From positions 56,768-120,767 of the forward strand of contig JAHEMM010000002.1 of assembly GCA_024643655.1 (NCBI GenBank): 64,000 bases of DNA, read 5' to 3'. Shown here piece after piece: positions 37,205 to 40,917 of the stretch (positions within the stretch are counted from its first letter, which is position 1; every line of letters begins with the position of its first letter). The position numbers and the translations under genes were made by a program. The stretch is from Chitinophagaceae bacterium (GTDB lineage Bacteria; Bacteroidota; Bacteroidia; Chitinophagales; Chitinophagaceae). The notes under the pieces are model-generated. The model was not told the origin of the DNA. It was given only the letters and a program-made list of their open reading frames with translations, and ran no database searches.

Positions 37205-37717
37205 ATGAATCCACTCGTAGGAATAATTATGGGAAGTGACAGTGATTTGGCCACTATGCAATCAGCTTCTGAGATTCTTAAACAATTTGACATTCCACAT
37301 GAAGTAACGGTAGTTTCAGCTCATCGTACTCCGGAAAGAATGATGGAATATGCAAAGTCTGCGAAAACAAGAGGCCTAAAAGTAATTATTGCCGGCGCTG
37401 GGGGATCTGCACATTTACCAGGAATGGTAGCTGCTGTAACTTCTCTTCCGGTAATTGGCGTTCCAATAAAATCATCTAATTCAATTGATGGATGGGATTC
37501 TGTCTTGTCCATTTTGCAAATGCCTAACGGCGTACCAGTAGCCACCGTTGCTTTAAATGGGTCAAAAAATGCTGGTATATTGGCGGCTGAAATATTAGGT
37601 ACATTTAATGAACAGATTTCACAAAAAGTAGCCGACTATAAAACCTCGCTTACTACTGAAGTAATTGTAAAAGTGGAAAAGATGAAGAACGCTGGATGGG
37701 AGAATAAGTTTGATTAA
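37205..37717 (+). CDS. purE: N5-carboxyaminoimidazole ribonucleotide mutase
   Basis: [73 protein letters not shown]. Start ATG 37205. Confidence 0.97.
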
Positions 37718-38648
37718 AAATATGGTTCGATATTTTATTTTCTTATTTACTATAACATTATTTTTTTCTTGCGGCAATAAAACTCTTTTAGAAGAAGTAA
37801 AAATACTTCCTTCCTACCCTTCCTCTTCCGGTATTGAATACTTTAACAATCAGTATTTCATAATTGGTGATGATGCGAAAAATTTATTAATACTTGATAG
37901 CAACCTGACTAAAGTGGATTCAATCCCAATGTATCCATTCTCTGAACAACGTATTCCTAAATCTGTAAAAGCAGATCTTGAATCAATTGGAATTACAAAA
38001 GACAATAAACTACTTATACTTGGCTCAGGCTCTCTTTCTCCATTTAGAAATACAGGATGGCTAATTTCTCCAAATAAAAAAGAAAAAGAATTTATCCATC
38101 TCGATACATTTTATCACCGATTGCTATTGTATGGGATAAAAGAAATTAATATCGAAGGCTTTTGTTCATTATCCGAAGGTATCCTACTATCTAACAGAGG
38201 CAATAAAGGTTACCCAAAAAATCATTTGATTATTACAAATGAAAAATTCTGGCTCAATCAAACAAATACGCCAATTTCTACTATAAGTATTGGCATTAAT
38301 AAAGACAGCTCAAAATTTAGTGGGATTTCTGGAATTACTTATTCATCAAAGAGTGACCGTTTATTGCTAACTGTTTCAACTGAGGACACAAAAAACAATA
38401 TTGATGATGGGGCAATTGGGAAAAGCTATATCTGGATAATTAAAAATTTTACTTCAAAAAGAAAATGGAAAGCAATTAATCCGGACATTATGATAGACCT
38501 TGAAGCAATTGATCCGCGGTTTAAAGGACAAAAGATAGAATCAATCTGCATTACTAAGGAAACAACAAACTTTCTACAACTGGTGTTAGTTGCTGACAAT
38601 GATAACGGAAGCAGTACTCTCTTTAAGATAGTTTTAGAAAAAGATTAA
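37710..38648 (+). CDS. Hypothetical lipoprotein, beta-propeller-like
   Basis: Lipobox TLFFSCGN; repeated beta-rich segments. Confidence 0.7.
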
Positions 38649-38727: not shown

Positions 38728-40917
38728 ATGAGAAATATATTCTGTCTTTCAACCCTGTTTATTATTAGCACATTTTCTTTACACACAAGTGCTCAAACTC
38801 CGCTAAAATTCAGGGATACAACAATCAATGGTTCACAAACATTTGCTATTGTTGTTGGTGTTTCGGAATATAAATATGTTCGACCATTAACGTATGCTGA
38901 TAAAGACGCCATTTTATTCAGCGATTACTTAAAATCTCCCGGAGGTGGAAATGTAAAAGACGAAAATATTTTCACATTACTGAATGACGAAGCTTCTAAT
39001 TCAAATTTCTGGACAAAAGGATTTCAATGGTTGAAAGCAAAGCAGCTACAAAAAGGTGATAAGCTTTTCATTTACCTGGCTGGTCATGGAGATGCAATTG
39101 ATGAAGATCAGTTTTTCTTTCTTGGTTACGATTGTAATCCTGAAGGTGATAAAAACAATTATCTTGTTAGCGGAACAATCCAATTATTTAATCTGAAGAA
39201 AAAGATTAAAAATGAAACAGCAAAAGGTGTAGAAGTATTTTTTATCATGGATGCTTGCCGTTCTAATGAATTACCGGGAGGAATTGCCGGGCAAAGTTTT
39301 TTAAATACAGCTATATCTGAAAAGAAAGCTGGCGAAATAATCATGCTGGCTACCGGTGCAGGGCAGGAATCATTGGAAGACAAGTCCATTGGTACCGGTC
39401 ATGGCCTATTTACATATTATTTAGTAGATGGGCTTAGTGGAGTTGCAGATACAGATGGAGCAGCAGATTATAAAGTTACTTTTAAAGAAATTCAATCATA
39501 TGTTGATAAAAATGTCCCTTCGGTTGCCGAAGAACGTTTTAAAAGAAAACAAGATCCTTATTTCTGTTGTAATGAAAATAGTGATAAAGTAATCAGCAAT
39601 GTTGACCCTGTTTATTTGGAAAAATGGTTAAAAACAAAAAAATCTCAAAATTCGGGGGGAGGCAACTCCTTTAACGGATTTTTTAATTCAACTACCAGCC
39701 ATCATTTTGTTGATACAATATTGGTTGAAACATATAATCAATTTAACCGGGCAATAAAAAATAAAAATATTACAGGTAATAAATCCGCTGAAGAATATTT
39801 TCAGCAATTAGCAGCAAAATATCCGGGCAATCCTTATACATTGGATGCCAAATCAACACTTACGGTCAACTACATTGATTTTGCCCAGGCAAAAGTTGAC
39901 CGCTATCTTTCTTGTTCAGAAACACTAACCAGTAAGCTTAAGCAGGAAAATTCAGAAGCAGCTATCCGATTAGAAAAAGCGATAAACTATGTACGGGAAG
40001 ATGATGAAGATTTTGCAAATTCATTAAAGGGAAGATTGTATTTATTAAAAGCAAGTGGTGATAATCCTTCCGCTGCAATTTCGTTTCAAAATGCGTATAC
40101 TGCTCTTTCAATTGACCCTAACGGAGCTTATATACAAAATAAACTTGCATTACTTCATTTTGATAATAATAATAAAGACAGTGCTTTATTTTATGCCAAT
40201 AAGGCTGTAAATACTGCGCCTAACTGGAAGTGTGCATTAACAACATTAGCGTTGGTACAAAATGCTGCCAATAAGAAACCCGATAACAAAAATGTAAAAA
40301 AGAATTCACCTTTTAGAAAAGTTAGTTTTGGTGCTACCATTGGCGGAGGTCTTAATCAGTCGAACCCAACTTATTCCGGTAATGCTAATACCGGCTATAT
40401 AGATGTAAGATCCACCACAGCTCCGGTATTTGATCTCGGTGTGATTGCTCAAATAAATATCGGTGGAAATATTTTTATTCGACCATCTGCTACTGTTAGT
40501 TTTGAAAACACTGATATTAATTTTATAAGAAGACTTCAAACAGGCGGCCAGGAAATTACAGAAACAATAGGATTAAAAGGAACGAATGCAAACATTGAAC
40601 TACCTTTTATTATACAGTTCTCTTCAAAAAACATAGCTCCCTATATTATGCTTGGGCCATCATTCAGCTATACAGTGAACCAGAATGCCACTACGGCAGA
40701 TATATTACCGGTAAAAAAATCATTACTTAACGGAAATGGTGGTTTTGGTGTAGATATAGGTTTAGGCAAATCAGGACTTTCATTATCGCCTGAAGTAAAA
40801 TATACAGCAGGCTTTTCTGATATTAAAGACCCCAATGGTACAAGCTCTTATGCGGGAGCATTATCTTCCTTAAAGAAAAATAGTTTTTCATTTAATTTGT
40901 ATTTGAGAAAAAGGTAA
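38728..40917 (+). CDS. Caspase-family (C14) domain protein with C-terminal outer-membrane beta-barrel-like domain
   Basis: QTFAIVVGVSEYKYVRPLTYADKDAILFSDYLK...LFIYLAGHGD (His120)...FFIMDACRS (Cys177); middle TPR-like region; C-terminal Gly/aromatic strand repeats (FGATIGGGLNQSNPTY...FIRPSATVSFE...FSFNLYLRKR). Confidence 0.87.
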   Translation: MRNIFCLSTLFIISTFSLHTSAQTPLKFRDTTINGSQTFAIVVGVSEYKYVRPLTYADKDAILFSDYLKSPGGGNVKDENIFTLLNDEASNSNFWTKGFQWLKAKQLQKGDKLFIYLAGHGDAIDEDQFFFLGYDCNPEGDKNNYLVSGTIQLFNLKKKIKNETAKGVEVFFIMDACRSNELPGGIAGQSFLNTAISEKKAGEIIMLATGAGQESLEDKSIGTGHGLFTYYLVDGLSGVADTDGAADYKVTFKEIQSYVDKNVPSVAEERFKRKQDPYFCCNENSDKVISNVDPVYLEKWLKTKKSQNSGGGNSFNGFFNSTTSHHFVDTILVETYNQFNRAIKNKNITGNKSAEEYFQQLAAKYPGNPYTLDAKSTLTVNYIDFAQAKVDRYLSCSETLTSKLKQENSEAAIRLEKAINYVREDDEDFANSLKGRLYLLKASGDNPSAAISFQNAYTALSIDPNGAYIQNKLALLHFDNNNKDSALFYANKAVNTAPNWKCALTTLALVQNAANKKPDNKNVKKNSPFRKVSFGATIGGGLNQSNPTYSGNANTGYIDVRSTTAPVFDLGVIAQINIGGNIFIRPSATVSFENTDINFIRRLQTGGQEITETIGLKGTNANIELPFIIQFSSKNIAPYIMLGPSFSYTVNQNATTADILPVKKSLLNGNGGFGVDIGLGKSGLSLSPEVKYTAGFSDIKDPNGTSSYAGALSSLKKNSFSFNLYLRKR

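Follow-up and report, generated by a model that had tools for sequence, protein, structure and literature searches.

The gene at positions 38728..40917 (+ strand) of the 64,000-nucleotide stretch of Chitinophagaceae DNA analysed here (the window) raises the question of what a caspase-type protease does when it appears to be built onto an outer-membrane barrel: on which side of the membrane would it work, and on which proteins? We think it probable (roughly 0.6) that the product of this gene, here called A, is a periplasmic, outer-membrane-tethered protease of the metacaspase type that acts on envelope or exported proteins. The evidence for each part of this prediction, and the other readings that it has to be weighed against, are set out below.

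Domain architecture of A

The domain layout given in the initial annotation, a signal peptide, an intact C14 dyad, a TPR-like middle and a C-terminal outer-membrane barrel, was borne out by the sequence, by profile matches and by a structural model. The open reading frame encodes 729 amino acids, and its orthologues, intact or cut by contig ends, lie at the same locus; the orthologue alignment comprises 18 sequences in all. From the N-terminus, and all on the + strand, A has a signal peptide (residues 1-22; 38728..38793), a Peptidase_C14 caspase domain (residues 39-288; 38842..39591; Pfam PF00656, 2.6e-14, 53.9 bits versus a cut-off of 21.4), a TPR-like helical region (residues 330-515; 39715..40272), and a predicted eight-stranded, PorT-like outer-membrane barrel (residues 532-728; 40321..40911). 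Pfam matches to TPRs are weak in the window's copy; the model is confidently helical over residues 330-515. Based on these results, we conclude that A combines a caspase-type protease with a predicted PorT-related eight-stranded outer-membrane barrel, and that TPR helices link the two.

The signal peptide ends in a signal peptidase I site (...TSA↓Q), with cleavage predicted before Gln23. This Gln is invariant in the orthologue alignment, and 17 of the 18 orthologues have an [AGS]-Q motif. The site therefore agrees with the Q-rule for signal peptidase I substrates in Bacteroidota (PMC5837995). A lipobox is absent from A, which leaves the barrel as the sole evident anchor.

Each domain of A is under purifying selection. 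The ratio dN/dS was 0.02-0.13 in three close pairs of sequences and was low in all three domains, indicating that the protease and the barrel have both been maintained. In one pair that was saturated at synonymous sites, the value for the barrel reached 0.26. Five non-catalytic cysteines (136, 280, 281, 396 and 502; window 39133-40233) are invariant in 18 of 18 orthologues, with Cys280 and Cys281 forming an adjacent pair, and disulfides involving these five residues in the periplasm are possible. A promoter scan found 14 matches, with 14.3 expected.

Relationship of the barrel to PorT

By sequence comparison, the barrel of A is best described as a diverged relative of PorT/SprT. The initial annotation had assigned the C-terminal region to porin-family barrels; the barrel held up and the family did not. 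In the AlphaFold model of the full protein, eight long strands lie within residues 532-728, with a block pLDDT of about 74-92, and the Foldseek matches of this model include the barrels of OmpW, NspA, and OmpA, with TM-scores by target of up to 0.66. The NCBIfam model for PorT/SprT (NF052311) matched residues 504-726 with 64 bits, under its equivalog cut-off of 125, and it also matched eight of eight orthologous barrels, at 40-79 bits. The family OMP_b-brl_2 (PF13568) scored 33.6 bits on the window's gene against a gathering cut-off of 27, and seven of eight orthologous barrels also exceeded this cut-off. With a profile made from the fusion barrels, the ten PorTs tested all scored 44-57 bits, whereas the eight further OMP_b-brl_2 barrels in the window's genome stayed below 12 bits, and hhalign aligned the fusion barrel to PorT with a probability of 97.9% (E 6e-13, 19% identity). 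The PorT-specific profile match rules out a generic porin. The window's genome encodes a separate, true PorT (183.9 bits). The C-terminus of A (YLRKR) is without the terminal aromatic residue that is typical of many barrel proteins.

PorT is an outer-membrane component of the type IX secretion system (T9SS), of unknown function (PMC7463736, PMC7906972). A barrel that is specifically related to PorT could dock at the outer-membrane machinery of that system, where the caspase would trim cargo or parts of the machinery in a way broadly similar to the action of PorU, a clan CD peptidase, on cargo. A true PorT is kept in all 14 of the genus genomes tested, as this reading would have it. However, many members of the genus keep PorT and have no fusion, so that A could be at most an accessory and is not a core part of the system. 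In addition, the barrel scores far under the PorT equivalog cut-off, no T9SS gene was recognized beside A, and no PorU sortase (NF033707) scored above its cut-off in the window's genome or in one relative (G018). Taken together, these points make a type IX accessory role rather unlikely. Both of those genomes keep PorT, a full PorU is present in four relatives, and the missing PorU of the window's genome may reflect a gap in the assembly.

Orientation of the caspase

We place the caspase most probably in the periplasm and not at the cell surface. The initial annotation had anchored the caspase in the outer membrane and allowed it to work on surface or periplasmic proteins; the anchoring agrees with the predicted barrel, and of the two settings the periplasm is favoured, since both termini of an eight-stranded barrel are normally periplasmic. 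Alternatively, the N-terminal part of the protein might be exported or threaded by the barrel, and the caspase would then be active outside the cell in the manner of an autotransporter or surface protease. Foldseek with the full model does rank the autotransporter EstA first, with a poor TM-score (0.15-0.17). However, a classical autotransporter is expected to have a twelve-stranded C-terminal translocator, and the eight long strands modelled in A are too few; such a barrel should have its N-terminus on the periplasmic side; and the TPR-barrel layout of BcsC, also among the Foldseek matches of the model, is periplasmic. We therefore regard surface display as improbable. BcsC and similar proteins resemble A in joining periplasmic TPRs to a C-terminal outer-membrane barrel, and differ from it in having a larger exporter barrel of an unrelated family and no protease.

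Distribution, locus and origin of the fusion

The caspase-barrel fusion occurs at one locus in 18 genomes, all from one Chitinophagaceae group, and no second such fusion was found among 249 genomes of the order or in a 396-genome sample of the phylum. Within the genus, A is present, in full or cut by a contig end, in 12 of 35 genomes, and one further genome (G031, same contig as L021) has a decaying copy with stops. In this decaying copy, from a lake genome (L021:5977-7234, G031:C20), the caspase part is open, the rest is broken by stops, and the DUF6929 gene next to it is still open. The barrel profile matched in 65 of the 396 phylum genomes; apart from the window's own gene, the matching open frames were all 199-327 aa long. 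In the caspase relatives that we looked at, the C-terminal part is made up of TPRs or of another tail without a barrel (several of these loci are cut before the C-terminus). On these grounds we rejected the idea that the fusion is a common Bacteroidota architecture.

The order of genes at the locus is constant: RND-tolC-purE-DUF6929-A-bshC. In seven members of the genus without A, purE adjoins bshC, and in two other genera DUF6929 alone lies between purE and bshC. A concatenated tree of the flanking genes groups the carriers of A together. A plasmid or phage origin was rejected: the plasmid collection yielded distant caspases that cover the caspase part alone, and the viral collection yielded no confirmed relative; no close relative of A was found in either.

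A looks like an old duplicate, with a PorT-like barrel in place of a long TPR array, of another exported caspase in the same genome, B. B (L068:636-5407, G000:C20) has 1110 aa, with a signal peptide, a caspase domain, a long TPR array, and no barrel. In a tree of caspase-TPR proteins, A stands apart from B, and B is the form found in other genera, which suggests the direction of the duplication. The split between A and B is older in this tree than the split from genus g45 (support within A is weak), implying either that A was lost afterwards or that it evolved faster. B and a gene for a CHASE2 membrane protein form a divergent pair in 13 loci, which include three genera; at two loci (L016 and L017) the sequence starts too near B to show CHASE2, and L085 has none in its short flank. 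The pair recurs in other genera of the family, and we consider B and CHASE2 a candidate for a conserved module of sensor and protease.

Elsewhere, caspase homologues take part in stress, death or defence pathways, and the initial annotation had proposed stress, death or immunity signalling as one possible role for the protein. An activated, tethered caspase could damage the envelope or trigger a lethal cascade, and the pairing of paralogue B with a sensor-type membrane protein would fit such an effector. For A itself we found nothing pointing there: its locus is a fixed, housekeeping one, the plasmid and viral contig collections gave nothing close to it, and no toxin- or defence-type partner was recognized beside it. 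We judge this role to be quite improbable, somewhat more so than surface display.

The whole caspase set of the window's genome appears to be exported, judging from the N-termini. All five C14 caspases found there start with a plausible signal peptide: the window's gene, B at L068, L069:4381-6840, L070:1693-3744, and L070:5352-9143. The last two belong to a cluster (L070:1693-11787, G000:C103) that comprises a 683-aa C14 protein with a weak DUF4384 match, a 1263-aa WD40-caspase, and, beside them, an 837-aa protein whose N-terminus resembles a signal peptide and which contains repeated segments.

The neighbouring DUF6929 protein

The gene next to A (37710..38648, + strand) encodes a DUF6929/phytase-like protein (Pfam PF22000, 7.6e-51) that is a predicted lipoprotein in the carriers and, with its conserved synteny, a candidate partner. 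A pattern search found a lipobox in DUF6929 of 13 of 15 carrier loci, and L010 and L023 show the equivalent Cys by eye; the lipobox of the window's own protein reads FFSC. In the DUF6929 comparison (window 37710-38648 and L131-L148), 15 of 16 genes from genomes without A showed no lipobox or evident signal peptide, and the remaining one (L148) was ambiguous. That DUF6929 changes compartment together with A speaks for a functional link between the two proteins; the carriers form one clade, so the change amounts to about one event. Of 20 genus genomes checked, only the three with A, the decaying copy included, yielded a full-length DUF6929 relative; in G020 a short, weak match lies close to the end of a contig. 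Against the link, DUF6929 stays intact in G031 while the fusion decays.

A duplicated PorT-type barrel might have been recruited to put the caspase at a type IX or outer-membrane protein export site, for caspase-driven maturation or quality control of exported proteins, with DUF6929 made into a lipoprotein partner. We offer this as a speculative scenario and, as with the type IX role above, think it rather unlikely.

Active site and predicted specificity

The catalytic dyad of A is intact, as the initial annotation had stated. His120 (LAGHGD; 39085..39087) and Cys177 (DACRS; 39256..39258) are invariant in 18 of 18 orthologues and also in 28 distant exported caspase-TPR homologues of the same order. 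The dyad is placed as in C14 proteases: a family profile (alignment A2, built from 20 diverse members) aligns GHG and D-x-C with the motifs of yeast and trypanosome metacaspases, and it matches the metacaspases of yeast (3.1e-10) and Candida glabrata and trypanosome MCA2. A scored 50.2 bits against the EACC1-associated caspase model (NF047832), under the cut-off of 140 bits.

The predicted cleavage sites of A lie after Arg or Lys, and not after Asp. In TbMCA2, Asp95 and Asp211 accommodate basic substrates (PMC6426788). Asp60 (38905..38907) and Asp175 (39250..39252) of A line up with these two residues, are invariant in orthologues and distant homologues, and are the predicted acids of the S1 pocket; two acidic S1 residues for a basic P1 are the mark of C14B. 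The invariance of both metacaspase S1 acids is the basis of the prediction. It also speaks, together with the invariant His and Cys, against a pseudo-protease scaffold that binds basic peptides without cutting them, which we consider very improbable even though pseudo-orthocaspases exist in other phyla, as such variants are rare in Bacteroidetes (10 of 1078; PMC6426788).

Calcium is possibly a cofactor. An EF-hand-like acidic loop (residues 241-254; 39448..39489) follows the domain core; it has the canonical form in many distant homologues, whereas A and the proteins closely related to it have two additional residues there. D241, D247, and E254 of this loop are invariant among the orthologues of A, and the loop may bind Ca2+.

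The folds of the two ends of A were modelled with different confidence. The barrel is confident, and the active-site half of the caspase has low pLDDT in two AlphaFold models made from shallow alignments. Foldseek with the model of the caspase domain ranks metacaspases first, though pLDDT is low around the active site.

Discussion

Our preferred reading of A is that of a tethered, periplasmic protease, and we propose the following mechanism. A would be exported by Sec and then cut by signal peptidase I. The C-terminal PorT-related eight-stranded barrel would insert the protein into the outer membrane, with the TPR helices and the metacaspase-type domain hanging from it into the periplasm. There, His120 and Cys177 would cut substrates after Arg or Lys, and Ca2+ may serve as a cofactor. 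Binding of a substrate or partner is predicted for the TPR region, with the neighbouring DUF6929 lipoprotein as the leading candidate, and the TPRs, perhaps with DUF6929, would choose the substrates. The most likely role of A would then be to process or degrade, in a limited or regulated way, proteins of the periplasm or outer membrane, or exported ones, close to the outer membrane.

Parts of A are familiar from known proteins. The exported caspase-TPR proteins of Bacteroidota (B and its relatives) have a signal peptide, a C14 domain with the same dyad, and a TPR middle, as A does; they have longer TPR arrays or other non-barrel tails in place of the barrel, and B is paired with CHASE2, whereas A is paired with DUF6929. 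A has in common with orthocaspases and metacaspases (MEROPS C14B; yeast Yca1, TbMCA2) the HC dyad, two S1 acids, and profile and fold matches, and differs from them in being exported and fused to TPRs and an outer-membrane barrel. With PorT/SprT (NF052311) it has in common an eight-stranded barrel and PorT-specific sequence similarity, but its barrel is only about 19% identical, scores under the equivalog cut-off, and is fused to a protease, and the true PorT is a separate protein. In the portion of a survey of bacterial metacaspases that we draw on, TPRs are among the commonest partner domains, some operons have OmpA-domain neighbours, and no barrel fusion is mentioned (PMC3501461). We found no report of a caspase-barrel fusion in the open-access literature. 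Exported caspases with TPRs are known and poorly studied; what is new here is the fusion of such a caspase to an outer-membrane barrel related to PorT.

Little is known of what caspase homologues do in bacteria, and in A a location is written into the protein. A points to bacteria that may keep a caspase on the inner face of their outer membrane. The barrel would keep the protease there, which would narrow the range of possible substrates and make function testable. A is also a natural PorT relative that is physically tied to a protease, in a family whose own role in the T9SS is unknown.
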